A DNA stretch of 64,000 bases, from NCBI RefSeq assembly GCF_038561935.1, contig NZ_CP102770.1, forward strand, positions 9,052,001 through 9,116,000, read 5' to 3'. Below, one piece after another: positions 20,500 through 59,079 of this stretch (positions are counted from its first letter, which is position 1; each line of letters opens with the position of its first letter). A program made the position numbers and the translations under genes. A model generated the notes under the pieces. The model saw nothing but the letters and a program-made list of their open reading frames with translations. It made no database searches and was not told the origin of the DNA. Origin of the DNA: Myxococcus stipitatus (GTDB lineage: Bacteria; Myxococcota; Myxococcia; Myxococcales; Myxococcaceae).

Positions 20500-22038
20500 A
20501 TGTCCATCATCCGCGCGGCCGCGACACTCGTGGTCCTGTCCCTTCTGAGCGCATGCTCGGGCAGCAACCACGAAGACCCTTCCGGGGGGCCCAGGCTCCC
20601 CACCGCGGAGCTGGTCGACACCACCGTGGGCGCCGACTACGAGGTGCTCCTGACGGCCACGGGCGGCACCGCGCCCTACTTCTACAGCATGACGGAGGAG
20701 CCGCCCCCGGGCTTCTCGTTCTACTCCGACGGGAAGTTCACCGGGCCCGCCAGCGCCTCCGGCCAGTACGCCATCAAGGTGACGGTGCGCGACGCGGAGA
20801 AGACGCAGGACACGCGGACGTACCACCTGAAGGTGTGGCCCGCGCCGGTGCTCTCCACCGTCGTGCCGCCCAACGCCCTGACGGGCGGCAACTACTCGCA
20901 CCTGTTCTCCATCACCGGCGGGCGGCCGCCCCTCGTTTTCTCGGTGGCGGAGGGCACGCTGCCCGCGGGCCTGACGCTGTCGCGGGAAGGAGAGCTGTCG
21001 GGCGTCGCGCGCCAGACGGGCACCAGCATCTTCACCGTGCTCGCGCAGGACGCCAGCGGCGTGAAGGCGACGGCCCGCTTCTCCATGGAGGTGAAGCAGG
21101 GCACGGGGACTCCGGACTCCGGCCCCAACCCGTCGGGGAGCTTCCCCCTGTCCGTGGGCAACTGGAACGTGGAGTTCTTCGGAGACCCGGGCGCGGGCCC
21201 CACGGACGACACGCTCCAGCGCAACAACGTGGCGACGGTCATCAACGGCACGGACGTGGACGTCTGGGGTCTGGCGGAGGTGGTGAGCACCACGGAGTTC
21301 AACACGCTGAAGTCCCAGCTCCCCGGCTACGACGGCTTCCTCGCGAATGACGCCCGCGTCACGTCGGGCTCGGGCTACTACGACACGGACGAGCAGAAGG
21401 TGGGCGTGCTCTACAAGGCGGGCGTGGTGGAGGTGCGCGAGGCCCGGCTCATCCTGACCCAGTACAACTACGAGTTCGGAACCCGCCCTCCCCTGCGCGT
21501 GGACCTGCGCATCAAGCGGGGCGGCGCCACCGTGGACATGACCCTGGTGGTGCTGCACATGAAGGCGATGGCCACCGCGGCGGACTACACCCGGCGGAGG
21601 GACGCGGGGCAGCAGCTCAAGAACTACCTGGACACCAACCTCCCCACGCAGCGGGTGATGGTGGTGGGCGACTGGAACGACGACCTGGATACGTCCATCG
21701 TGTCGGGCTACGACACGCCCTACCGCAACTTCCTGAACGACCCGGCGCGCTACGGCTTCATCACCCACTCGCTGACGATGTCGGGCGAGACCTCCACGGT
21801 GAGCTACCGGAACTTCATCGACCACCAGCTGGCCAGCAACGAGATGCAGGCGCACTACGTCTCGGGCTCGGCGGCCTCGCTGCGTCCGTCCATCACCAAC
21901 TACGGCAAGAGCACGTCCGACCACTACCCCATCATCAGCCGCTACGACCTGGGGCAGGTGAACCCGCCGGCCTTCGGCGCCGAGGCCCCCGACACCCTCG
22001 GGCTCCAGGGGGAAGCGGCCGGATTCACCGTGCACTGA
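20500..22038 (+). CDS. Lipoprotein with two Ig-like domains and an endonuclease/exonuclease/phosphatase domain
   Basis: 512 residues. The lipoprotein signal ends at LLSAC (Cys 19). Residues about 40-210 hold two putative-Ig (He_PIG-like) domains, each with the GGxxPYxF / GLTLSxxGELSG pattern (TGGTAPYFYSM, ITGGRPPLVFS, LPAGLTLSREGELSG). Residues 218-500 are an EEP-fold domain: VGNWNVEFFG, WGLAEVV with the metal Glu, VVLHMKAM, MVVGDWNDDLDT and SDHYPIIS with the catalytic His. It is likely a surface-anchored or released metal-dependent nuclease or phosphatase. All key EEP residues that I can place are present. GGGAG precedes the ATG by nine bases. Confidence 0.85.
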   Translation: MSIIRAAATLVVLSLLSACSGSNHEDPSGGPRLPTAELVDTTVGADYEVLLTATGGTAPYFYSMTEEPPPGFSFYSDGKFTGPASASGQYAIKVTVRDAEKTQDTRTYHLKVWPAPVLSTVVPPNALTGGNYSHLFSITGGRPPLVFSVAEGTLPAGLTLSREGELSGVARQTGTSIFTVLAQDASGVKATARFSMEVKQGTGTPDSGPNPSGSFPLSVGNWNVEFFGDPGAGPTDDTLQRNNVATVINGTDVDVWGLAEVVSTTEFNTLKSQLPGYDGFLANDARVTSGSGYYDTDEQKVGVLYKAGVVEVREARLILTQYNYEFGTRPPLRVDLRIKRGGATVDMTLVVLHMKAMATAADYTRRRDAGQQLKNYLDTNLPTQRVMVVGDWNDDLDTSIVSGYDTPYRNFLNDPARYGFITHSLTMSGETSTVSYRNFIDHQLASNEMQAHYVSGSAASLRPSITNYGKSTSDHYPIISRYDLGQVNPPAFGAEAPDTLGLQGEAAGFTVH

Positions 22039-22097
22039 CGACCCGAACAACCCGATTCGCGGGCTCGCTCCGTATCGGCTGAAGGGGTGGGACGGGC

Positions 22098-22832
22098 ATG
22101 GTGCCCGGCCCGGCTCGCGTGGGGTCGGAATCAACCGTGCTGCCTGGAAATGACCGCTCCGTCTTGGAGTCCTTCCGGCGTGGGGACGCGGCTGTCCTCA
22201 CCCAGGTGTATCGCGCCTACTCGCCGGAGGTGCTGCGCTACCTCGCTCGCCGCTTCGCGGTGGGCACGGACGTGGGTGGGACCCGCACGGTGACGCTGTC
22301 CGCGCTGGACCTGGACGCCGCCCATCAGGAGACCTTCGTGCGCGCGTTTCGTCCCAACATGCGGCAGGCCTACGACGGGGTGCGCCCGTACCTGGGCTTC
22401 CTGCTGACGGTGGCGCGCTCCACGGCCATCGACCTGATGCGGGCGTCGGGGCGGGTGTCGCGCGAGGCCGTGTCGCTGGACGAGGCGCCGGAGCTGACCC
22501 ACCTCCCCAACGAGGGCCGCACCCCCGAGGAAGAGGCCCTGGGCACCGAGGTGCGGACGCTGGTCCGCCGCTTCCTGGACACGCAGTCCGAAGAGGGACG
22601 CGCGCTCGCGCAGCTGCGCTTCGTGGAGGGCCTGTCCCAGGAGGTCGCCGCCGAGCGGCTCCAGCTCACGCGCGGCGAGGTCCGCGTGCGGGAGCGCCGG
22701 CTGCGCACGCAGTTCACCGACTACCTGACGTCCTCGGGCTGGCTGGAGACGGCCCCCGAGTCCAGGCCCCTGGAGCTGGGCGTCCTCCTGGCCACCCTGG
22801 CGCTGTGCACCCTGGGGAGTGTGGCGCCATGA
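22098..22832 (+). CDS. ECF-type sigma-70 factor with hydrophobic C-terminus
   Basis: 244 residues. Region 2 spans about 20-115 (FRRGDAAVLTQVYRAYSPEV, then HQETFVRAFRPNM and YLGFLLTVARSTAIDLMR). Region 4 spans about 155-215 (RALAQLRFVEGLSQEVAAERL then the recognition helix TRGEVRVRERRLRTQF). There is no region 3. The last 20 residues (ELGVLLATLALCTLGSVAP) are strongly hydrophobic, unusual for a sigma factor and long enough for a membrane helix. First of four genes joined by ATGA overlaps; the next encodes its probable anti-sigma. Start at the ATG 22098; an internal GTG at 22137 is the alternative. Confidence 0.87.
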   Translation: MVPGPARVGSESTVLPGNDRSVLESFRRGDAAVLTQVYRAYSPEVLRYLARRFAVGTDVGGTRTVTLSALDLDAAHQETFVRAFRPNMRQAYDGVRPYLGFLLTVARSTAIDLMRASGRVSREAVSLDEAPELTHLPNEGRTPEEEALGTEVRTLVRRFLDTQSEEGRALAQLRFVEGLSQEVAAERLQLTRGEVRVRERRLRTQFTDYLTSSGWLETAPESRPLELGVLLATLALCTLGSVAP

Positions 22833-23578
22833 GATGGTACGAGCGCCACATCGACGCCAGCCTGTCGCGCTGGGCCCAAGGGGAGCTGCCCTCGGCGCAG
22901 GCCGCGCGCCTGCTGCGGCATGCACACCTGTGCCACCGGTGCGGCCCGCTCTATGAGCGCCACGCCCAGGCCCATCGCGCGCTGGAGGGCTCCTCCCAGG
23001 CGCCCTCTTCCGTGGAGCGGCAGGCGCTGACGGAGGCCGGGCTTCAGGCGGCGCTCGCGGCGGCGGCCCCGTTACCGGTGCCCTCGAAGGGGCCCGCGCT
23101 GGCGGCGCTGGGGGGCGCGGTGGCCGCGGCCCTCCTGGCGGTGATGCTGACGCCCTCGCTGACGCACGAGTTCCGCGCCCGAGGCATCGGGTCCCCTCCT
23201 CCGGGCGTGGCCCTGCGCGTCTTCTGCGCGACGTCGGGACAGCCCCTCCGCGAGCTGCACGCGGGGGAGGCCTGCCCGGCCAACGCGATGCTGGCCTTCG
23301 CCGCGGGAGGTCGGCCGCCTTACAGCCATGCCGCCGTCAGGGTGCGCGGCCCGCGCGGCCTGGAGCTCACCCGGGGGCCTTTCGCGCTGGTGGGGACGCC
23401 TGGCAAGGAAGCGCCGCTGGAGCTGACGGTGCCGCTGCCAGAAGCGGTGGGCGAGGCGCGAGTCACGGCGGCCTTCGCCAGCAGTGCCTCCGCGGCGCTG
23501 GCCGCGCTGCGGGGGGATGGGGAGCAAGAGGGGGCAGTGGTGCTCGAGCAGACACTGAGGGTAGAGGAAGGTCCATGA
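22829..23578 (+). CDS. Zinc-type anti-sigma factor, membrane-spanning
   Basis: 249 residues starting at the ATG inside the stop of the sigma gene. Residues 31-38 carry the HxxxCxxC signature of zinc anti-sigma domains (H31, C35, C38; RHAHLCHRC). A single membrane helix lies near 90-113 (LAALGGAVAAALLAVMLTPS). The C-terminal 130 residues are outside the cytosol and have no match I recognise; segments such as VRGPRGLELTRGPF look like beta strands. It should hold the adjacent sigma factor at the membrane until an envelope signal releases it. Overlaps the caspase-like gene by ATGA. Confidence 0.82.
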   Translation: MRWYERHIDASLSRWAQGELPSAQAARLLRHAHLCHRCGPLYERHAQAHRALEGSSQAPSSVERQALTEAGLQAALAAAAPLPVPSKGPALAALGGAVAAALLAVMLTPSLTHEFRARGIGSPPPGVALRVFCATSGQPLRELHAGEACPANAMLAFAAGGRPPYSHAAVRVRGPRGLELTRGPFALVGTPGKEAPLELTVPLPEAVGEARVTAAFASSASAALAALRGDGEQEGAVVLEQTLRVEEGP

Positions 23579-25305
23579 ACAAGTTGGGAGTGCTCCTTGG
23601 GGTCGCCGCGCTCCTGGCCGCGCGCGACGCCTCGGCGGACGCGGTGATTCGCCGCGCGCTTGTGATTGCCCATAACGAAAGCGACGACCCGTCCCTCCCC
23701 GCGCTGCGCTTCGCGGATGACGATGGCGTGCTGTGGGCGGAGACGCTCCAGCGGCTGGGGGTGGAGACCACGCTGCTGGTGGACCCGGACGAGGCGACCC
23801 GGGCGGAGGCCCGTCCCGTCCTCGCGGGCGCGCGGCCCCCCACGCCGGACGAGGTGAAGCGCGAGGTGGCCCGGCTGCGCGCCGCGAGCCTCGCCGACGA
23901 CGAGCTGGGCCGCGAGACGGACGTGATGGTCGTCTACGTGGGCCACGGCAACACGGATGACATGGGCCGCGCGTACTTCACGCTGGCGGGAGGACGGCTG
24001 GACAAGGCCGCGCTCTACGCGGACGTGGTGGACCCGCTGGCCGCCGACTACGTGCACGTCATCGTCGATGCGTGCCGCGCCTCGGGCGTCGTGGGCAGCC
24101 GCGGCGGGCAGATGGACGCGGCGGTGGTGGCGGAGCTGCGCGGCATGCTCGCGCGCGAGCAACTGACCACCCGGCCCACCGTGGGCGCGGTCTTCGCGGA
24201 GAGCGATGACGGCGAGACGCACGAGTGGTCCCGCCTGCGCGCGGGGGTCTTCAGCCACGTGGCGCGCTCCGGACTGTTGGGCGCCGCGGACATCAACGGC
24301 GATGGACAGGTGGAGTACAGCGAGCTGGGCGCGTTCGTCTCCGCGTCGCTGCGAGGCGTGAAGGGACTGCCCGCCCGGCTGAGCGTCCACGCCTTCGCGC
24401 CCACGGGTGCGCCCCGCCGTCCCCTGGTGGGGCCCGCGCCCGAGGGGCCCAGCCTCATGCTGTCCTCCCAGCAGGCCCTCTCGCGCGTCTCCGTGGAGGA
24501 CGCGGAGGGACGACGGCTCGCGGACGTGCGCCGCGCCGAGGACCAGTACGTGATGCTCCGCCTGCCGGAGCGTGACGCGTACTGGGTGCGCACGCCCACC
24601 AGCGAGGTGCGCATCCCCCGCGCCGCGCTGGCGGAGGGCATGCCGCAGCTCGAGCCGCGTGAGCTGCAAGAGCGTGGACCCGCCGAGGAAGCCCTGAGCC
24701 GCGGCCTGTTCGCCGTGCCGCTCGACAAGGATTTCTATGACCAGTACGTGGTCACGGCGGGGCTCGTGCCGGTGGACTTCACGCATGCCTTCCCACCTGG
24801 GACGCTGGGGCCCGCGCCCGCGGGGGGCTTCTCGCGGACGAGCCAGGAGGCCTCTCCGTGGGAGGTGGGCCTGCAAGGGCACCAGGCGCCGCTGGGGCTG
24901 GGGCCCATCGCCGCGGGGCCCAGCATCTCCTACCGCCGCGAGGCCCTGTCCGCCTTCTACTTGGGCGCGCGCGGCAGCTACACGCTGACGCCTTGGGCCT
25001 CGGACGGACTGCGCACCTACCGCGCGACGGTGCAGGGCCTGCTCGGCGCGCGCGACGTGTTCCACACGCCGCTGTTCCTCGAGGCGGGGCTCGGCTGGGG
25101 CGCGCTGGGCGTGTCCTCTCCCGGCAAGTACATGGGCGACCTGACGGTGCTGACGAGCCATGCGGCGGTCGGGGTGACGCGAAAGGGCTTTGGCTTGAAG
25201 TGGCGGCTGGCCGCCACGGCCGCGATGGACCGGGTCACCCTGGATGGTGCCAACCGGTGGGATGGAATGCTGGGGATGGAGCTGTCCGCGACCACCTTCC
25301 GATGA
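23575..25305 (+). CDS. Exported caspase-like (peptidase C14) protein with EF-hand
   Basis: 576 residues. A signal peptide ends near residue 22 (LLAARDASADA). Residues 24-260 form a caspase/metacaspase p20-type fold: RALVIAHNESDDPSLPALRFADDD, catalytic His in YVGHG (H124) and catalytic Cys in VDACRASG (C167). An EF-hand-like loop DINGDGQVEYSELGAF follows near 239-254. The last 180 residues have alternating strands (SISYRREALSAFYLGARG, FLEAGLGWGALG) and could be an outer-membrane barrel; that is inference. Caspase-fold peptidases cleave after Arg/Lys or Asp; an export signal on one is uncommon. It is coupled by ATGA overlaps to the anti-sigma and to the next lipoprotein gene. Confidence 0.85.
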   Translation: MNKLGVLLGVAALLAARDASADAVIRRALVIAHNESDDPSLPALRFADDDGVLWAETLQRLGVETTLLVDPDEATRAEARPVLAGARPPTPDEVKREVARLRAASLADDELGRETDVMVVYVGHGNTDDMGRAYFTLAGGRLDKAALYADVVDPLAADYVHVIVDACRASGVVGSRGGQMDAAVVAELRGMLAREQLTTRPTVGAVFAESDDGETHEWSRLRAGVFSHVARSGLLGAADINGDGQVEYSELGAFVSASLRGVKGLPARLSVHAFAPTGAPRRPLVGPAPEGPSLMLSSQQALSRVSVEDAEGRRLADVRRAEDQYVMLRLPERDAYWVRTPTSEVRIPRAALAEGMPQLEPRELQERGPAEEALSRGLFAVPLDKDFYDQYVVTAGLVPVDFTHAFPPGTLGPAPAGGFSRTSQEASPWEVGLQGHQAPLGLGPIAAGPSISYRREALSAFYLGARGSYTLTPWASDGLRTYRATVQGLLGARDVFHTPLFLEAGLGWGALGVSSPGKYMGDLTVLTSHAAVGVTRKGFGLKWRLAATAAMDRVTLDGANRWDGMLGMELSATTFR

Positions 25306-27536
25306 ACGCTCACGCCCAAGACGCCACCACCGCGCGGACCTGGACCGCCCTCCTGTTCGTCCTGCTGTTGGGAGGCTGTGACGACATCCGCCTGGGGAAC
25401 ATCCTCCCCGCCCACGCGACGCTCACGCGCTCCGAGGTGGAGCCGCCCGGGCCCCAGTGCGAGCACGGTGGACGCGTGGTCTTCGCGGGCCCGGACGAGA
25501 ACGACGACGGCGTCCTCTCCGAGAGCGAGGTCGCCACGGCCCGGTATGTCTGCGCGGATCCGCTCCCCGCCATGCTGACGCGCACACGCGAGGAGCCCAA
25601 GGGGGCCCACTGCGAGCTGGGCGGGCACGCGGTGGAGACAGGGCCGGACACGAACGATGACGGGCTCCTCTCCGAGGCCGAGGTCACGGCCACTCGCTAC
25701 CTCTGCGCCGAGGCGCCTCGAGCCGTGTTGTTGCGCATGCGCGAGGAGCCCGCGGGTGTCCATTGCGAGCGAGGCGGGCGCGCCGTGGAGACGGGCCTGG
25801 ACACCGACGCGAGCGGCGTGCTGGAGAGCACCGAGGTCGTCGACACCGCGTATGTCTGCGCCACGGCCTTTCCCGGCATCCTCGTCAGCACGGTGCCGGT
25901 CCCCAAGGGAGCGGTGTGTCCCCATGGCGGCCAGCTCACGCACGCGGGAAGCGACCTCAACGGGGATGGCCTCCTGTCCGACGAGGAGCCCTCTCGCAAG
26001 GTGACGACCTGCCGGGAGCTCGAGCCCGTCGTGTCCCGCCTGGTGCTGTTGAACACCCGCGCCGAGGCCTGCACCGGCCGGGACACCTACGCCCTGGAGG
26101 CCGGCGGGGACGTGGACCTGGACGGCGTGCTCGATGACGGCGAGGTGCGCGCGATGATGCGCGTGTGCAAGCCGATGGACCCCTTGTTGCGGATTCATCG
26201 CGCCGAGCCCCCGGGCTCCCATTGCATCTCAGGGGGCGTCGCGGTGACGGCGGGCGGGGACAAGAATGGCGACAATGTCTTGCAGGAGAGCGAGGTCATC
26301 GGCGTCACGTATGTCTGTCAGCCCTCGGCCACCTTCGATGGCGACTACGAGCTGCGGGACGCCTCGGACGCGGCGGCCCTTCAGTCCATCTCCCGCATCC
26401 GGGGAGACCTCATCGTCTCCGCGCCCGAGCTGGTGGAGCTCCTCCTTCCCGGGCTCGAGTCCGTCGAAGGCTCGGTGACGATTCAGGACAACTCCGCGCT
26501 CACCCGGGTGGTGGCCCCCGCCCTGCGCTTCGTCCAGGAGGACCTCACCCTCGCCAACAACCTGCACCTGACCGGGGTGACGCTGGGCCCCTCCGACGCG
26601 TCCGGGCCTCCGCTGTGGGTCGGAGGCACCTTGAAGATCGAGGGCAACGACGCGCTCGAGAGCCTGGAGGGGCTCCATGCCGCGCCTCGCTGGAGCTTCC
26701 TGCTGAAGCAGAACAACCAGCTGACCGCGCCCGGTCACTTCCCCTTCATGGACCACCTCCGAGGGGAGCTCATCATCGAAGCCAACCAAAGCCTGACGGA
26801 GCTCCCTCTCTTCTCCGGTCTCCAGGTCGTCGAGGACCTGGTGAAGATTCGCAAGAACCCCGCGCTGAAGACACTCGACGGGCTGCAGACCCTCCAACGC
26901 GTCAACACGGACTTCATCCTCGAGGACAACGACTCGGTGACGAGCACATCCGTGCTGAAGAAGCTCACCTTCGTCGGCAGCACCCTTTCGGTCATCCGCA
27001 ACAACGCGCTGCGGACCTTCTCCCTCCCCGCGCTGTCCTGGGCCCTGACGAAAATCCACGTCGAGGAGAACTCCGTCCTGGAGGAGGTCGGCCCCTTCGG
27101 AAGCAGGTTGGAGACCAGCGACTTCTGGCTCTACGAGAACCCGGAGCTCTTGCGCATCACCGGACTGGGCTCGCCGCTGAGCATCTTGGGAGACCTGGTC
27201 ATCGTCGGCAGCAAGAAGCTGGAGAACCTGGGGGCCTTCTCGGCGCTGAGGTCACTGAGGTCGCTGACCGTGGAGTACTGCGACGCGCTGACGAGCCTGG
27301 AAGGACTGCACCAGGTCGTCTCGATGAAGACGCTCATCGTGCGCAGCAACCCGGGGCTCACCGAACTCCGGCTCGATGCGCTGGAGAACGTGAGCAGCGT
27401 GTTCAACGTGATGTTCAACGAATGGCTGCCCGCCTGTCAGGTCATCGCCTTGGCGGAGGCCGTCCACACCGGCCCCCGGGACCAGCGCTACACCCGCAGC
27501 AACTACGAAGGCGCCAGCTGCGAGCCGCCACAATAG
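25302..27536 (+). CDS. Lipoprotein with six Cys-repeat units and an L-domain-like region
   Basis: 744 residues. A lipoprotein signal ends at LLGGC after an unusually long N-region (about residue 26). Residues 35-340 hold six ~48-residue repeats, each with a conserved first Cys in GxxCxxGG, a DxNxDGxLxxxE calcium-loop-like stretch, and a closing YVCA; they resemble the repeats called DUF7151 in myxobacterial proteins. Residues about 345-730 are an L-domain/leucine-rich-like solenoid: IRGDLIVSAPELVELLLPGL, LESVEGSVTIQDNSALTRVV, LVKIRKNPALKTLDGL. Such domains bind ligands at the cell surface. Last gene of the sigma/anti-sigma/caspase operon, followed by a perfect hairpin at 27547. Confidence 0.82.
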   Translation: MNAHAQDATTARTWTALLFVLLLGGCDDIRLGNILPAHATLTRSEVEPPGPQCEHGGRVVFAGPDENDDGVLSESEVATARYVCADPLPAMLTRTREEPKGAHCELGGHAVETGPDTNDDGLLSEAEVTATRYLCAEAPRAVLLRMREEPAGVHCERGGRAVETGLDTDASGVLESTEVVDTAYVCATAFPGILVSTVPVPKGAVCPHGGQLTHAGSDLNGDGLLSDEEPSRKVTTCRELEPVVSRLVLLNTRAEACTGRDTYALEAGGDVDLDGVLDDGEVRAMMRVCKPMDPLLRIHRAEPPGSHCISGGVAVTAGGDKNGDNVLQESEVIGVTYVCQPSATFDGDYELRDASDAAALQSISRIRGDLIVSAPELVELLLPGLESVEGSVTIQDNSALTRVVAPALRFVQEDLTLANNLHLTGVTLGPSDASGPPLWVGGTLKIEGNDALESLEGLHAAPRWSFLLKQNNQLTAPGHFPFMDHLRGELIIEANQSLTELPLFSGLQVVEDLVKIRKNPALKTLDGLQTLQRVNTDFILEDNDSVTSTSVLKKLTFVGSTLSVIRNNALRTFSLPALSWALTKIHVEENSVLEEVGPFGSRLETSDFWLYENPELLRITGLGSPLSILGDLVIVGSKKLENLGAFSALRSLRSLTVEYCDALTSLEGLHQVVSMKTLIVRSNPGLTELRLDALENVSSVFNVMFNEWLPACQVIALAEAVHTGPRDQRYTRSNYEGASCEPPQ

Positions 27537-27546
27537 CGCCCCGACC

Positions 27547-27569
27547 GGACGCTCGAAGTCCGAGCGTCC
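27547..27569 (+). terminator. Perfect hairpin closing the sigma/caspase operon
   Basis: GGACGCTCG (27547-27555) and CGAGCGTCC (27561-27569) form a 9-bp perfect stem with a 5-base loop, starting ten bases after the stop codon. No T-run follows. It separates the operon from the response-regulator gene on the same strand. Confidence 0.65.
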
Positions 27570-27639: not shown

Positions 27640-29301
27640 ATGGCCAAGCCCGTCATCCTCGCGGTGGACGACGACACGGAGGTGCTTCGCGCGGTGGAGC
27701 GCGACTTGCGGCGCCAGTATGGCCGCGAGTATCGCGTGCTCAGCGCGGACCGAGGTGACTCCGCGCTGGAGACCGTGCGCAAGCTCCGCCTGCGCGGCGA
27801 CCCGGTGGCGCTCTTCCTCGTGGACCAGCGCATGCCCGGCATGTCCGGCGTGGAGTTCCTGGAGCAGGCCAGGACGCTCTACGACGAGGCCCGGCGCGTG
27901 CTCCTCACCGCGTACGCGGACACGCAGGCCGCCATCCATGCCATCAACGAAGTTCGGCTGGACCACTACCTGCTCAAGCCCTGGGAGCCTCCGGAGGAGC
28001 GCCTCTACCCGGTGCTGACGGACCTGCTCGAGGAGTGGTGGGCACACCACCCGCCGACCTTCGAGGGCATCCGCGTGCTGGGCAACCGCTGGTCTCCGCG
28101 CTCCCACGCGCTGCGCGACTTCCTGGGCAGCAATCAGGTGCCGTACCAATGGCTCGACGTGGAGGCCAGCGAGGAGGGACGGCTGCTGCTCGCACAGGCG
28201 GGAGGCGCGGCGGTGGAGAAGCTCCCGCTGGTGCTCTTCCCGGATGGCACGCGGTTGATGGGGCCCTCCACGCTGGAGGTGGCCGAGCGCATCGGCCTGA
28301 AGGTCCGCGCCACCAAGCCCTTCTACGACCTGGTCATCATCGGTGGAGGTCCCGCGGGGCTCGCCGCCGCCGTGTATGGCGCGTCCGAGGGACTGAGCAC
28401 CGTCATGGTGGAGCGCAGCGCGCCGGGCGGACAGGCGGGCACCAGCTCTCGCATCGAGAACTACCTGGGGTTCCCCGCGGGCCTGAGCGGCTCCGACCTG
28501 GCGCGGCGCGCGGTGGCGCAGGCCGCGCGCTTCGGGGTGGAGATCCTCACGCCGCAGGAGGTGAAGGGCGTGCGCGTGGAGGACCCGTACCGCATCGTCG
28601 CGCTCGCGGATGGAACGGAGCTGAGCTGCCACGCGCTGCTCCTGGCCATGGGCGTGCAGTGGAAGAAGCTGGAGACGCCGGGCATCCCCTCCTTCACGGG
28701 CGCGGGCGTCTACTACGGCTCCTCTCGCACCGAGGCCCTCTCGTGCAAGGACGAGGACGTCTACATCATCGGCGGCGCCAACTCCGCCGGACAGGCCGCG
28801 CTCTACTTCGCGCAGTTCGCGCGACAGGTGACGTTGGTGGTGCGAGGCGACTCGCTGGAGCGAGGCATGTCCCACTACCTGGTGGAGCAGGTGCACTCGC
28901 TGGCCAACGTCACCGTGCTGCTCGACACGGAGGTGACGCGCGTGGAGGGCAATGCCCACCTGGAGCGCCTCACGCTGGCCACGAAGGGACAGCCCGAGCG
29001 CACCGTGCCCGCCAGCACGTTGTTCATCATGATTGGCGCGGTGCCGAGAACGGAGTGGCTGGACGGCCTGGTGGCACGCGACGCGCGCGGCTACATCCTC
29101 ACCGGCCCGGACCTGATGCCCGGCGGCGAGCGGCCCAAGGGGTGGAAGCCCGAGCGCGCGCCGTTCCTGCTGGAGACGAGCGTGCCCGGCATCTTCGCCG
29201 CGGGCGACGTGCGCCATGCGTCCATCAAGCGCGTGGCCTCCGGCGTGGGCGAGGGCTCCATCGCCATCTCCTTCATCCATCAGTACCTGAGTGAGGTGTG
29301 A
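27640..29301 (+). CDS. Response regulator fused to thioredoxin-reductase-like flavoprotein
   Basis: 553 residues in three parts. Residues 1-125 are a receiver domain with D10/D11, phospho-acceptor D62 (LFLVDQRMPG), T90 and K113. Residues about 145-220 look like a thioredoxin/glutaredoxin fold without its Cys pair. Residues 228-553 are a low-molecular-weight thioredoxin reductase fold: FAD loop VIIGGGPAGLAAA, PGGQAGTSSRIENY, NAD(P) loop IIGGANSAGQAA and GIFAAGDVR. The CxxC that reduces thioredoxin is absent: that place reads GVYYGSSRTEAL. It may therefore sense NAD(P)H or flavin state, or use another acceptor. The histidine kinase gene follows after one base and is its likely partner. Confidence 0.87.
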   Translation: MAKPVILAVDDDTEVLRAVERDLRRQYGREYRVLSADRGDSALETVRKLRLRGDPVALFLVDQRMPGMSGVEFLEQARTLYDEARRVLLTAYADTQAAIHAINEVRLDHYLLKPWEPPEERLYPVLTDLLEEWWAHHPPTFEGIRVLGNRWSPRSHALRDFLGSNQVPYQWLDVEASEEGRLLLAQAGGAAVEKLPLVLFPDGTRLMGPSTLEVAERIGLKVRATKPFYDLVIIGGGPAGLAAAVYGASEGLSTVMVERSAPGGQAGTSSRIENYLGFPAGLSGSDLARRAVAQAARFGVEILTPQEVKGVRVEDPYRIVALADGTELSCHALLLAMGVQWKKLETPGIPSFTGAGVYYGSSRTEALSCKDEDVYIIGGANSAGQAALYFAQFARQVTLVVRGDSLERGMSHYLVEQVHSLANVTVLLDTEVTRVEGNAHLERLTLATKGQPERTVPASTLFIMIGAVPRTEWLDGLVARDARGYILTGPDLMPGGERPKGWKPERAPFLLETSVPGIFAAGDVRHASIKRVASGVGEGSIAISFIHQYLSEV

Positions 29302-29302
29302 C

Positions 29303-30334
29303 ATGTCCGGGGACGAGAAGGAGCCCCAGGAGCGGCTGCGATGTCTGGAGGGCGCGCTGCTGCGGCAGGAGAAGCTGGCCGCACTGGGCCGTCACGCCGC
29401 GGGCCTCGCGCACGAGATGAACAACCCCGCCTCCGCGGGCCGCCGCGCCACCGAGCAGCTCACCCAGGCCATGGACGCGCAGGAGGACCTCTCGCTGGAG
29501 CTGGACCGGTGGAAGCTGACGCCAGCGCAGCGACAGGAGCTGCTGCGCACCTGCCGGCAGAGCCAGGGCCGAGGCGCCACCCAGGACATGGACCCGCTCA
29601 CCCGAGGCGACGCGGAGGACGCGCTGGCCACGTGGATGGATGCCCGAGGCGTGGTGAACGCGTGGGACCTGGCGCCCACGCTGCTGGACGCGGCCATCGG
29701 ACAGGAGAAGCTGGAGCCGCTCGCACAAGCCCTTCCCGCCGAGGCACTCCCGGATGCACTCGCGTGGCTGGAGGCGCTGGTGCGCACACGAGCGCTGCTG
29801 ACGGAGGTGCGGCAGAGCACCACGCGGCTGTCGGAGCTGGCCGGCGCGGTGAAGTCCTTCACCCACGCGGGCAAGGAGCACCCCGAGCCCGTGGACGTGC
29901 ACGAGGGCCTGGAGAACACGCTGCTGCTCCTCAACTACAAGCTGAAGCACGGCGTCGAGGTGAAGCGCGACTACGACCGGAGCCTGCCGCGCATCCAGGC
30001 CCTGCCGGGGATGCTCAACCACGTGTGGACGAACCTCATCGACAACGCCATCGACGCGATGGGGGGCAAGGGGCACCTCGTCGTGCGCACCGCGCGCGAG
30101 GGCGACTCGCTGCTCGTGGAGGTGGTGGATGACGGACCCGGGGTTCCGCCGGAGCTGCTGGAGCGCATCTGGGAGCCCTTCTTCACCACCAAGCCCATGG
30201 GCCACGGCACGGGCCTGGGCCTGGACATCATCCGCCGCGTCGTCGTGGAGCGTCACCACGGCGACGTGCGCGTGGAGTCACGCCCGGGCCACACGTCATT
30301 CCAGGTGCGCTTGCCGCTCGGGACCGCGGCATAG
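29303..30334 (+). CDS. Histidine kinase, soluble, probable partner of the redox regulator
   Basis: 343 residues, no membrane segment. The H box reads GLAHEMNNPAS with the phospho-accepting His at 37. A ~150-residue segment between the H box and the ATPase contains WMDARGVVNAWDLAPTL, also found in the two kinases at 31773 and 33554. The ATPase has the N box WTNLIDNAIDAMGG, DDGPGVPPE and GTGLGLDIIRRVV. The ATG follows the stop of the response-regulator fusion by one base, with GAGG five bases upstream, so both are made from one message. Confidence 0.9.
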   Translation: MSGDEKEPQERLRCLEGALLRQEKLAALGRHAAGLAHEMNNPASAGRRATEQLTQAMDAQEDLSLELDRWKLTPAQRQELLRTCRQSQGRGATQDMDPLTRGDAEDALATWMDARGVVNAWDLAPTLLDAAIGQEKLEPLAQALPAEALPDALAWLEALVRTRALLTEVRQSTTRLSELAGAVKSFTHAGKEHPEPVDVHEGLENTLLLLNYKLKHGVEVKRDYDRSLPRIQALPGMLNHVWTNLIDNAIDAMGGKGHLVVRTAREGDSLLVEVVDDGPGVPPELLERIWEPFFTTKPMGHGTGLGLDIIRRVVVERHHGDVRVESRPGHTSFQVRLPLGTAA

Positions 30335-55480: not shown

Positions 55481-58348
55481 TCACCTCGCGGCGAGCCAGG
55501 TCTCGACCTCGGGAATCTCCTTCTCGCGGGCCTTCGGGAAGCGCCGGTAGATTTCCAGCGAGGACAGGGCCAGCTTGCGCGCGCGCGCCTGCTCATGAGG
55601 CTCTCCCGCCAGCGTGCGTGCGAGCAGGAAGCGGATGTCCGCGAGGATGAGCTCGTCGGTGCCGAAGGACTTCTTCTCGTAGACGGCCAGCGCGCGCTCG
55701 ACGAAGGGCCGGGCCTTGCGCGGTTGATGCAGGGACATGAGCGACTCGCCCACCAGGCCCCGGTCATACGCGGCCTCCAGGGAGTCGGGACCCCGAGCCT
55801 TCTCGCGGATGGCGAGCGCGCGCTCGTGGGCGGCGAGTGCCTCACCGGGCCGTCCCAGGGCCCGGAGCACCTGGCCCAGCCCGGACAGGGAGCTGGCGAC
55901 CCGCGCATCCTCCGGGCCCAGGAGCTTCTCGCGAATGGCCACCGCGCGGCGGAAGTGCTCGGCGGCGTCCTCGTTCCGTCCGGACAGGTGGCTGAGCATG
56001 TTGCCCATGTTGTGCAGCGCGGAGGCCACGTTCAGCGACTCCGCGCCATGCACGCCCGCGTAGATGGCCAGCACGCGCGTCTGGTGAGCGACCGCGTCCT
56101 CGTAGCGGTTCAGGTAGGTCTCCTGCACGGCGAGCAGGCTGAGGACGACGCCGACATCCGGATGGTCGGGCCCGTAGTTCGCGACGTAGCGCTCATGGGC
56201 TTCGCGCAGGAGGGCCACGGCCTCCTCGAAGCGACCGGCGATGCCCAGCATCCTCCCGGCGTTCAGAAGGGGGGTGGAGAGGCGCGCGTCCTTCGGGGGA
56301 TAGGTCTTTCGCGCCAGCTCCAGCGCATGCAGGCCCTGGGCGAGCGCCTCCGGGTTCCTGCCCTTCGATTGGAGGAGGCTGGACAGGTTGGTGGCCAGGG
56401 TGACCTCCATCGGTGCATCGCCGCCCAGCCGCTGCACGGCCGCGGTGGCATGGCTGCCGTACTGGTCCTCCGGGTCCGCGCCCTTGTCGAGAAAGCTGGC
56501 GGCGCGCAGCAGCAACACCCAGCCCTCCGCCACGTGCCAGTCCATTCCCGCCGCCTGCGCGGTCTGGATGAGCTTGTGCAGCGTCTGGACCGCCTCCTTG
56601 TCATTCGACTCCGCCTGCGACTGGGCGAGCGCGCGGAGCATCTCCACGCGCACCGGAGGGAAGTCCACCCCCTCCATCCGCGCGGGCAGCGTGGAGGCCA
56701 GCTCCAGCGCGGACTTGGGCTGGCCCGCGTGCAGCCGCGCGCGGACGGTGGCGATGTCCTTCTGGAGGGACTCCAACTTCTCGCGCACGCCCGGGTCCTT
56801 GGGCAGCGGGCGCGAGGACGTCAGCGCCTGCACGTCGGAGCACCGGCTCAGGTCCTCCAGTCCCGACACCGCGCGCACGGCGTTCTGCACCACGGGCGCC
56901 GCCGCGGAGGACAGCACCCCCACCAGCGCCGCGACATCCCTGCGCCGCTGCGCCAGGCACAGCAGCTGCCGCTCATACATGCCCTCCGTCTGGCGGCCGT
57001 GGATGCGAGTGGCCTCGCACGCGTGCCGCGAAGCCTCCTTCCAGTCGCGAGCATAGGCATCCAGCGAGCCGCTCACCCCGCGCCAGGTGTCCGCCGCGTA
57101 CGGCAGCCCCGTCTTCAGGAGCGCGTCCTGGACGGAGGCGCGCGTCTTCTCATCCCAGACGCCCACCAGCGCGTTCGGGTCGTCCTCGCAGAGCGTGGGC
57201 CGCGTGGCGAAGAAGGCGACCACCCCCACCGCCAGCAGCGCGGCCGTGATGCCCGCGACATGGAACATCTGATGGGGCGAGAGCAGCGGCTCCTGGCCCA
57301 GCGCCCGCAGCAGCGCCTCCATGGAGGCGTGACGGTCCTCGGGCTCCGGCGAGAGCCCCTTCAGCACGGCCAGGTGGATGCGGTCGGGGACGCGGGCCTC
57401 GCGCTGGAGCGTCCTCGCGGCGCGCGCCCCCTGCTCGAGCGCGAGCTCCGCGGGGGCCGCGCGGGGAAAGGGCCGGGCACCGTAGAGCGCCTCGTACAGC
57501 GCGACACAGAAGCTGAACTGGTCGCTGCGCGCGTCGGGCGTCTCGCCGCGCGACTGCTCGGGGGCCATGTAGCCCGGGGTGCCCAGCAGCGTCCCCGTCT
57601 GCGTGAGGGAGTCGTTGGACTCGCCCTCCGCCGCCGACGCGGACGCCGGAGCGACGGCCGACGGCGGTGACTCCTCCGCGCCATCCAGGATGCGCACCAG
57701 CCCGAAGTCGGTGATGCGCACCCGCCCCGTGGTGTCGATGAGGACGTTGTCCGGCTTGAAGTCGCGGTGCACCAGCCCGGCCGCGTGCGCGGCGGCGAGC
57801 CCCTGCCCCGCTTGATGGAACAAGCCCAGCGCCTCGCGCCAGGGGATGCGCCCCGCGCGCATGCGGGCGCCCAGCGTGGTGCCCTCGACGAACTCCATGG
57901 CCAAGAAGACGCGGTCGTCCACGCGGCCGAAGTCGTGGATGGCGACGACGTTGGGGTGGACGACGCGCGCGGTGGCCTGGGCCTCGCGCAGCAGCCGGGC
58001 CTGGGACTCCGCGAGCCGCGCGGACTGGACGGTGTCGAAGCGCAGGATCTTGAGGGCCACCTTGCGGTGGAGCTCCGGGTCCCTCGCCGCGTAGACGACG
58101 CCCATGCCTCCGGCGCCGATTCGCTCCATCACCACGTAGCGGCCCAGCACGTCGCCGCGGCCCAGGAAGCTGGAGGAGAGCGCGGCCGGGGGCTGACTCA
58201 CACCTTCATCCACCGACGCCACCGCCTCCGCCACCAGCACGCGGCAGGAGGGGCACTCGTCCAGGTGCCCCTGGAGGGCCAAGGCCTCGTCACCGCGCAA
58301 CAGCCCCCGCCCGAAGGCGAGGAGGTTCTCCGTCGTGGGACACCGCAT
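55481..58348 (-). CDS. Ser/Thr kinase with anti-sigma-type zinc finger, membrane helix and TPRs
   Basis: 955 residues. Residues 3-35 are a zinc-finger HC2 motif (H28, C32, C35 in GHLDECPSCRV) as in anti-sigma factors. The kinase domain spans 70-345: ERIGAGGMGVVYAARD, VALK, HRDFKPDNVLID, DFGLVR and GTPGYMAPEQSRGE. One membrane helix lies near 368-390 (HVAGITAALLAVGVVAFFA). The C-terminal half holds at least five TPR-like units (ALHNMGNMLSHLSGRNEDA, SLSGLGQVLRALGRPGEA). A kinase combined with a zinc anti-sigma finger next to a sigma-factor gene suggests control of that factor by phosphorylation. Transcribed away from it; 26 bases between the starts. Confidence 0.9.
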   Translation of the reverse strand: MRCPTTENLLAFGRGLLRGDEALALQGHLDECPSCRVLVAEAVASVDEGVSQPPAALSSSFLGRGDVLGRYVVMERIGAGGMGVVYAARDPELHRKVALKILRFDTVQSARLAESQARLLREAQATARVVHPNVVAIHDFGRVDDRVFLAMEFVEGTTLGARMRAGRIPWREALGLFHQAGQGLAAAHAAGLVHRDFKPDNVLIDTTGRVRITDFGLVRILDGAEESPPSAVAPASASAAEGESNDSLTQTGTLLGTPGYMAPEQSRGETPDARSDQFSFCVALYEALYGARPFPRAAPAELALEQGARAARTLQREARVPDRIHLAVLKGLSPEPEDRHASMEALLRALGQEPLLSPHQMFHVAGITAALLAVGVVAFFATRPTLCEDDPNALVGVWDEKTRASVQDALLKTGLPYAADTWRGVSGSLDAYARDWKEASRHACEATRIHGRQTEGMYERQLLCLAQRRRDVAALVGVLSSAAAPVVQNAVRAVSGLEDLSRCSDVQALTSSRPLPKDPGVREKLESLQKDIATVRARLHAGQPKSALELASTLPARMEGVDFPPVRVEMLRALAQSQAESNDKEAVQTLHKLIQTAQAAGMDWHVAEGWVLLLRAASFLDKGADPEDQYGSHATAAVQRLGGDAPMEVTLATNLSSLLQSKGRNPEALAQGLHALELARKTYPPKDARLSTPLLNAGRMLGIAGRFEEAVALLREAHERYVANYGPDHPDVGVVLSLLAVQETYLNRYEDAVAHQTRVLAIYAGVHGAESLNVASALHNMGNMLSHLSGRNEDAAEHFRRAVAIREKLLGPEDARVASSLSGLGQVLRALGRPGEALAAHERALAIREKARGPDSLEAAYDRGLVGESLMSLHQPRKARPFVERALAVYEKKSFGTDELILADIRFLLARTLAGEPHEQARARKLALSSLEIYRRFPKAREKEIPEVETWLAAR

Positions 58349-58374
58349 GCGCCCTCACTGTAGGCTTCGGATGA

Positions 58375-59079
58375 ATGGCCAAGTCCTCGGAGACCGAGCT
58401 CCATGTCGCGGACCTGGCGCTCGCCCGTGCGTGCGCGAGCGGTGATGCCGCGGCCCTGGCCACGCTCGAGGAGCGCATCATTCCCCAGGTGCGCGCCGCA
58501 TTGAAGCGCCGGGACGTGGATGACACGACGGCGGACGAGGCGCTCCAGGTCCTGCGGGCGCGCTTCCTCGTCGCGGAGGGCGCCCTGCCGCCCCGCATCA
58601 TGGAGTACGCGGGGAAAGGCCCCCTCTCCGCCTGGCTGCGGATGACGGCGCTGCGGCTGGCCTGGGGGGTGATGAACGAGCGCAAGGGGCCGCTCGTCAC
58701 CGACGACGGGCCGCTGGAGGCGCTGGGCGTCGCGCCCGACGACGTGGAGCTCCAGTACCTCAAGGAGCGCTACGGCGCGGACTTCAACGCCGCCTTCCGC
58801 GAGGCACTCGCCGCGCTGGAGCCCCGCGCGCGAACCCTGTTGCGAATGCATCTGGTGGACGGAATGGGCACCGCGCGCATCGCGGAGGCCTACGGCGTGG
58901 ACCGCTCCTCGGTGAAGCGGTGGCTCGCCACCGCCCGCGAGTGGCTGTTGGACCAGACGCGGGTGCGCTTCGCGGCGCGGGTGGGCGTGAGCCTGCCGGA
59001 GCTGGACAGCCTGCTGGCCCAGCTGAGGAGTCAGCTGGACCTGAGCATCCGCCGGTTGATGGCCGGCGGCCCGACCTAG
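58375..59079 (+). CDS. Sigma-70-family factor next to a zinc-finger kinase
   Basis: 234 residues. Region 2 about 15-105 (LARACASGDAAALATLEERI, then GKGPLSAWLRMTALRLAWGV); region 4 about 150-205 (ALEPRARTLLRMHLVDGMGTARIAEAYGV, shown only in part here; DRSSVKRWLATARE is the recognition helix). No region 3. The spacing between the two regions is longer than in classical ECF factors, and the protein may be one of the sigma subfamilies restricted to myxobacteria. It starts 26 bases from the divergent kinase, which carries an anti-sigma-type finger. Converges on the NYN gene with a four-base overlap. Confidence 0.87.
   Translation: MAKSSETELHVADLALARACASGDAAALATLEERIIPQVRAALKRRDVDDTTADEALQVLRARFLVAEGALPPRIMEYAGKGPLSAWLRMTALRLAWGVMNERKGPLVTDDGPLEALGVAPDDVELQYLKERYGADFNAAFREALAALEPRARTLLRMHLVDGMGTARIAEAYGVDRSSVKRWLATAREWLLDQTRVRFAARVGVSLPELDSLLAQLRSQLDLSIRRLMAGGPT

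Follow-up and report, generated by a model that had tools for sequence, protein, structure and literature searches.

Introduction

Operons that join a sigma-70 factor to a metacaspase are already known: the survey by Asplund-Samuelsson et al. (2012; PMC3501461) reports them in M. xanthus, where they account for four of the five caspase homologues, and in Anaeromyxobacter, Haliangium, and Sorangium. We have analyzed an operon of the same kind in a 64,000-nucleotide (nt) stretch of Myxococcus stipitatus DNA (the window), which covers positions 9,052,001-9,116,000 of a chromosome of ~10.1 Mb. In this operon, an extracytoplasmic function (ECF) sigma factor is followed by a zinc anti-sigma factor, an exported caspase-like peptidase, and a lipoprotein with DUF7151 repeats and a receptor L-domain, all co-directional on the + strand. 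In the available text of the 2012 report, the sigma factor is named as the common partner, and there is no mention of the zinc anti-sigma, the predicted outer-membrane barrel, the linker motif, or the swapped lipoproteins of the present operon. We consider that the operon may encode a caspase-gated transmembrane sigma switch, in which the caspase frees the sigma factor by cleaving the anti-sigma factor, and we rate the chances of this reading as about even.

In control of the RseA-DegS/RseP type, the anti-sigma factor undergoes site-1 and site-2 proteolysis, DegS being an inner-membrane PDZ serine protease. The DegS-RseA pair (named in PMC10028731) resembles our proposal in that a periplasmic protease cuts a single-pass anti-sigma beyond its membrane helix, but DegS lies in the inner membrane, whereas the caspase here is predicted in the outer membrane. 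The closest experimental precedent is the type III-E CRISPR system Csx29-Csx30-CASP-sigma, where a caspase-fold protease frees an ECF sigma through cleavage of its inhibitor (PMC10028731). On the one hand, an ECF sigma with an anti-sigma-like inhibitor stands in both systems beside a protease, which has a caspase fold in type III-E and is caspase-like here. On the other hand, the type III-E system is cytosolic, RNA-triggered, and of the CHAT type, whereas the protease here is exported and C14-type and has no CRISPR parts beside it: the four genes match C14, zf-HC2, ECF, and DUF7151 alone, and not a CHAT protease with Cas7-11, Csx30, and CASP-sigma. A PADLOC search gave no defence family match. 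ECF54 sigma factors, encoded near CHAT or subtilase proteases, have likewise been proposed to be controlled proteolytically by the caspase-like protease next to them (PMC8999054); ECF54 is proposed to have no anti-sigma factor, whereas the present operon has a zinc-type membrane anti-sigma.

Our literature search for sigma/anti-sigma/caspase triads returned the 2012 survey (PMC3501461) and the ECF54 review (PMC8999054) as the only near reports. The first-pass annotation of the window had regarded the four-part set as undescribed; we found no description of the triad, but the sigma-caspase pairing itself is already known from the 2012 report. New here are the predicted barrel of the caspase, its invariant His124 and Cys167, the basic-Gly motif of the anti-sigma that matches the R/K-G of the caspase, and the conserved ECF-type promoter.

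Organization and conservation of the operon

All our results come from sequence and predicted structure. The genes and the hairpin behind them are as follows.

22137..22832, + strand: ECF sigma factor, 231 aa (TIGR02937, 60.6 bits; GTG start by orthologues)
22829..23578, + strand: membrane anti-sigma, 249 aa (zinc-type domain, one transmembrane helix, immunoglobulin (Ig)-like beta-sandwich)
23575..25305, + strand: exported caspase-like peptidase with a predicted C-terminal eight-strand beta-barrel, 576 aa
25302..27536, + strand: lipoprotein, 744 aa (lipobox LGGC26, six DUF7151 repeats, receptor L-domain)
27547..27569, + strand: hairpin 3' of the operon, perfect over 9 bp, without a T tract

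In the open reading frames (ORFs), each neighbouring pair of the four genes shares a 4-nt ATGA overlap, as had been noted before. The first-pass annotation had also taken the genes for one unit closed by a perfect hairpin. The hairpin is indeed perfect (arms 27547-27555 and 27561-27569, 5-nt loop), but it lacks a T tract and is therefore not a canonical intrinsic terminator; likewise the overlaps are real, but the conserved unit has three genes.

Caspase homologues (E ≤ 1e-20) were found in 104 of 195 Myxococcota genomes, many distant ones aligning to residues 7-400 alone. Among the 60 caspase loci whose neighbourhoods were gene-called, the order sigma, anti-sigma, caspase recurred, with 4-nt overlaps in almost every case, in Myxococcus, Pyxidicoccus, Corallococcus, Citreicoccus, and other genera. 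Some loci (L066, L074, and L080) were read via stop-to-stop ORFs. Most of L067-L073 showed a divergent form, with the anti-sigma and sigma genes facing the caspase gene. Considering that order and overlaps are kept in dozens of genomes under purifying selection, the three-gene arrangement is beyond chance. A check of the four-gene order in relatives, set beforehand, thus found the core kept and the fourth gene swapped. We rejected the four genes as a conserved system; across the surveyed loci, the conserved unit is sigma, anti-sigma, and caspase, and the lipoprotein is a variable partner.

The window's genome holds at least six further caspase genes (L038-L045; e.g., C1:9937959, C1:424728, and C1:3338786), mostly with sigma and anti-sigma neighbours and in two deep classes, R-G and K-G; a run of N lies upstream of L038. 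Copies also decay, as seen in a sigma/caspase copy of a related genome (L065) that is spread over several frames with in-frame TGAs. Downstream of the caspase in the L067-L073 lineages come an unannotated protein of ~250 aa, whose gene overlaps that of the caspase, and an Ig-like (He_PIG) lipoprotein; the three form a distinct cassette opposite the sigma and anti-sigma genes. A record titled Comamonas sp. KCTC 72670 (BNCN01000017.1; L022) carries the operon at Myxococcus-like identity and is probably mislabelled or contaminated.

The anti-sigma factor and its linker motif

Two sites of the anti-sigma factor bear on the proposed switch.

22919..22942, + strand: HxxxCxxC, residues 31-38, invariant in full-length orthologues
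23168..23185, + strand: juxtamembrane E114-F-R-A-R118-G119 with the predicted caspase cut R118|G119, from conservation and disorder in the model

The zf-HC2 match of this protein is weak (E 0.015). HxxxCxxC is followed by a single transmembrane helix (~90-108) and then ~140 residues outside. In the AlphaFold2 (AF2) model, helices span residues 3-78, residues 80-122 are disordered, and a beta-sandwich spans 127-246; structure searches with this periplasmic domain returned generic Ig-like beta-sandwiches alone, none of them informative. The protein is predicted to bind and inhibit the sigma factor. The earlier proposal that the two proteins form an envelope-signal relay is supported.

E114, R118, and G119 are invariant in 15 orthologous anti-sigmas despite indels and variation in linker length. 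An acidic-[FWL]-x-x-R-[GS] motif recurs in anti-sigmas of distant lineages, and a second deep clade has [IV]-K-G. Within 25 residues past the transmembrane helix, [RK]G was present in 88 of 93 distinct caspase-linked anti-sigmas, which are related and hence not independent; when the linker stretches were shuffled in 500 rounds, it occurred on average in 29 of the 93 and never in more than 41. The fuller acidic-hydrophobic-basic-[GS] motif was found in 71 of the 93, versus none of 14 controls, a small set of transmembrane proteins adjoining other ECF genes in the window's genome. The position of the basic-Gly motif floats relative to both the transmembrane helix and the beta domain, and its distance to the first strand varies widely.

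The basic residue of the linker motif and that following the catalytic Cys of the caspase agree in nearly all pairs (R/R 50, K/K 46), but this agreement is weak as covariation, suggestive and not proof, since it reflects two old clades, read from a quick tree, with few later changes, and L082, L084, and L166 disagree. L147 and L155, also scored as disagreeing, owe this to K motifs that were picked wrongly. Strict R/K covariation was rejected as proof of cleavage.

The caspase-like peptidase and its predicted barrel

The features of the third gene product are listed below.

23575..23640, + strand: signal peptide MNKLGVLLGVAALLAARDASADA; nearly all homologues have N-terminal hydrophobic export signals
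23944..23946, + strand: catalytic His124, invariant in every intact homologue
24073..24075, + strand: catalytic Cys167 in a DxC context, invariant in every intact homologue
24100..24105, + strand: R176-G177, nine residues past Cys167, possible autoprocessing site
24289..24324, + strand: EF-hand-like loop DINGDGQVEYSE, residues 239-250, a canonical 12-mer in 53 of 58 homologues
24847..25302, + strand: predicted OmpA-like eight-strand beta-barrel, residues 425-576 (AF2, Foldseek, VIA-align)

The Peptidase_C14 match (24.4 bits, cut-off 21.4), the signal peptide, and the invariant His124 and Cys167 bear out an exported caspase with an intact dyad. Of 122 caspase domains, all except one have R-G or K-G about nine residues past the catalytic Cys. 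Caspases are cut between their subunits near the matching position. D165, in its DxC context, is compatible with a preference for Arg or Lys, judged by the S1 residues of metacaspases. Such a preference is predicted for the present caspase, considering that orthocaspases and metacaspases cleave after these residues (PMC6426788, PMC3501461).

The EF-hand-like loop reported earlier is real as a 12-mer at residues 239-250, and EF-hand proteins were the only matches of an hmmsearch against PDB sequences, through this loop. It may bind calcium as a cofactor. Calcium control as an established feature was not accepted, its basis being loop conservation.

Structure prediction of the caspase with its C-terminal domain, set beforehand as a check, pointed to an OmpA-like barrel at 425-576. 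The AF2 model has eight antiparallel strands at 429-574, with a predicted local distance difference test (pLDDT) score of about 75-91. The top Foldseek matches of the barrel were OmpA, NspA, and OmpX (E 1.7e-6, for OmpA, to 8.5e-5), and VIA-align of residues 425-576 against eight-strand outer-membrane barrels gave Z scores of 17.3 to 15, OprF also being matched. The predicted fold is thus like that of OmpA-type barrels such as NspA, OprF, and OmpX, but it is fused here to the C-terminus of a caspase-like peptidase. The caspase core aligned with Arabidopsis metacaspase 4 (AtMCA4) at Z 12.3 over 159 residues and 4.1 A, with residues 157-288 at pLDDT below 50. The model shows no structure for residues 363-425, which would form a tether. 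Given the eight strands and the analogy with OmpA, the N-terminal caspase domain should face the periplasm. The predicted barrel would accordingly hold the protease at the outer membrane, on the periplasmic side.

The sigma factor and its promoter

The sigma factor matches the TIGR02937 sigma70-ECF family (60.6 bits, cut-off 42.9) and contains sigma regions 2 and 4. It probably starts at GTG 22137, giving 231 aa, since orthologues begin there and a 1-nt indel in L046 throws the upstream ATG out of frame; the start at ATG 22098 given in the first-pass annotation is probably wrong. A conserved promoter element lies upstream.

22046..22075, + strand: ECF-type promoter, -35 AACAACCC (22046-22053), -10 CCGTAT (22070-22075)

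The elements GNAC(G/A)ACCC and CGTAT are kept with fixed spacing 5' of the sigma gene in 28 orthologous loci amid poorly conserved surroundings. AACRACC-N16-18-CGTAT occurs twice in the whole genome searched (~10.2 Mb), once at this operon. The promoter fits autoregulation by the operon's own sigma factor but is not proof of it. A genome-wide search for a regulon with the promoter pattern gave few matches, and the sole checked match with a plausible gene start was L199 (753-824; G000:C1:1637952), where a promoter-like ACGACC-N17-CCGTAT stands ~45 nt upstream of the start codon (ATG) for an exported protein of 310 aa. This gene is possibly a second sigma target.

The variable lipoprotein

The six calcium-loop-like repeats and the L-domain that had been described in the lipoprotein are real. 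DUF7151 matches six times (228.7 bits, E 4e-69), each repeat holding a calcium-loop-like 12-mer of the type D-x-N/D-x-D/S-G, and the L-domain, which like DUF7151 scores above its cut-off, is placed as follows.

26760..27035, + strand: receptor L-domain, residues 487-578 (Pfam Recep_L_domain, 35.9 bits, E 8.8e-9)

Between the window and its relatives L046-L048, the ratio of nonsynonymous to synonymous substitution rates (dN/dS) was 0.13-0.25 for the sigma factor, 0.21-0.25 for the anti-sigma, 0.14-0.25 for the caspase, and 0.64-0.68 for the lipoprotein. The L-domain lies within the most divergent part of the lipoprotein, and in residues 501-580, inside the L-domain, the proportions of nonsynonymous (pN) and synonymous (pS) differences were about equal. 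Divergence of this kind is typical of a recognition surface that changes rapidly; it may also stem from relaxed constraint or from gene conversion among the copies.

Most Myxococcus and Pyxidicoccus genomes have three or four DUF7151/L-domain lipoproteins, arrayed 11-50 nt past the caspase. The window and L046-L048 have one copy with a 4-nt caspase overlap, which is confined to this species group. Lipoproteins without detectable similarity, which have no Pfam match, FG-GAP with fn3, or a BNR-like domain, take this place in Corallococcus, Archangium-like, and other genomes. In the window's genome, paralogous copies are followed by a beta-helix lipoprotein and preceded by an RCC1 lipoprotein. 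Several slot lipoproteins share a short N-terminus past the lipid cysteine (CDDI, CDAI, CDPI, or CLDPI). A second DUF7151-containing protein of the genome (G000:C1:3249292-3249690; L031, L032) stands apart from all the caspases surveyed.

Neighbouring genes

Upstream of the operon, a lipoprotein gene (20500-22038; lipobox LLSAC), endonuclease/exonuclease/phosphatase-like by eye, is kept in L046 and L047. Downstream (27640-30334), a response-regulator and thioredoxin-reductase-like gene and then a histidine-kinase-like gene, also assigned by eye, are kept in the closest relatives. Elsewhere in the window, at 55481-59079, a second ECF-type sigma factor (58375-59079) is encoded divergently from a protein of 955 aa, whose N-terminus is zinc-finger-like (HLDECPSC) and which also has kinase-like sequence.

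Discussion

The gene order, its conservation, the intact dyad, the predicted barrel, the linker motif, the promoter, and the selection pattern are computed. Beside them we infer the topology, cleavage, autoprocessing, sigma release, and lipoprotein role of the following scheme. The zinc-type domain of the anti-sigma would hold the sigma factor at the inner membrane. The exported caspase would be anchored by its barrel in the outer membrane, and a flexible tether would leave its protease domain in the periplasm, opposite the periplasmic domain of the anti-sigma. A stimulus would activate this metacaspase-type protease, probably through a self-cut at R176|G177, and the active protease would cut the R118|G119 bond of the anti-sigma, which lies in the linker that joins the transmembrane helix to the beta-sandwich. 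This cut would start sigma release, with later cuts by other proteases likely, and the released sigma would act at the conserved promoter to drive the operon that encodes it. The lipoprotein, as a fast-evolving swappable module, would most likely be a ligand or contact sensor, or else the main surface product, such as an adhesin. The candidate cleavage site and the conserved ECF-type promoter thus support the earlier suggestion that proteolysis outside the cytosol is tied to transcription.

Several points weigh against the caspase-gated switch. The cut at R118|G119 is a prediction. Plain [RK]G also occurs in 5 of the 14 control linkers, the motif may be structural in the K clade, where the first strand is near, and the R/K agreement is one deep two-clade split with exceptions (L082, L084, L166, L043, and L162). 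The AF2 model of the caspase used just 17 similar sequences (63-80%), and its low-confidence stretch, 157-288, includes part of the active site. Also, the barrel is not universal: some homologues stop at about residue 420 or bear a C-terminal hydrophobic helix.

The caspase could instead be an output of a standard envelope-stress sigma/anti-sigma pair, with the exported caspase and the lipoprotein as effectors in predation, contact killing, or developmental lysis. The shared operon, the conserved promoter, and the fast-evolving, surface-type lipoprotein would suit such effectors, and the 2012 survey suggested a role in developmental autolysis for Myxococcus metacaspases (PMC3501461). However, this account leaves unexplained the near-universal basic-Gly motif in the linkers of caspase-linked anti-sigmas and the constancy of sigma, anti-sigma, and caspase beside a swapped downstream gene; we consider it unlikely. 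It is more doubtful still that control runs in the reverse direction, the beta-sandwich of the anti-sigma binding and restraining the caspase, with R/K-G as a docking or structural element. The conserved anti-sigma/caspase pair and the nearness of the motif to the beta-sandwich, chiefly in the K class, would agree with this, but the variable distance to the first strand and the disorder of the motif in the model would not. Least probable, in our view, is an incidental neighbourhood of a known sigma-metacaspase operon and an unrelated, tandemly duplicated lipoprotein. Corallococcus and Archangium-like genomes indeed lack the lipoprotein family in this place, and elsewhere an 11-50 nt gap separates it from the caspase; however, other lineages fill the slot with different-bodied lipoproteins, several with a similar N-terminus (CDPI, CDDI, CLDPI), and the ATGA overlap is maintained in four related genomes.

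Extending the caspase-gated switch, we tentatively propose, with slightly more doubt than belief, a duplicated family across Myxococcota, in which exported, often outer-membrane-anchored caspases would act as site-1 proteases on their own anti-sigmas at a basic-Gly site, with swappable lipoprotein inputs. For the role of bacterial caspase homologues, above all outside the cytosol, the class described here offers a substrate, a scissile bond (R118|G119), and a location (the outer membrane, opposite the inner membrane), all of them predicted, and a transcriptional read-out, which make direct testing feasible in laboratory myxobacteria. If the switch operates as proposed, bacterial caspases would serve in signalling as ligand-gated proteases, in a way that resembles DegS-RseA. 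Recognition of prey, kin, or surfaces could then rest on the several copies that a genome holds and on their diversifying lipoproteins.

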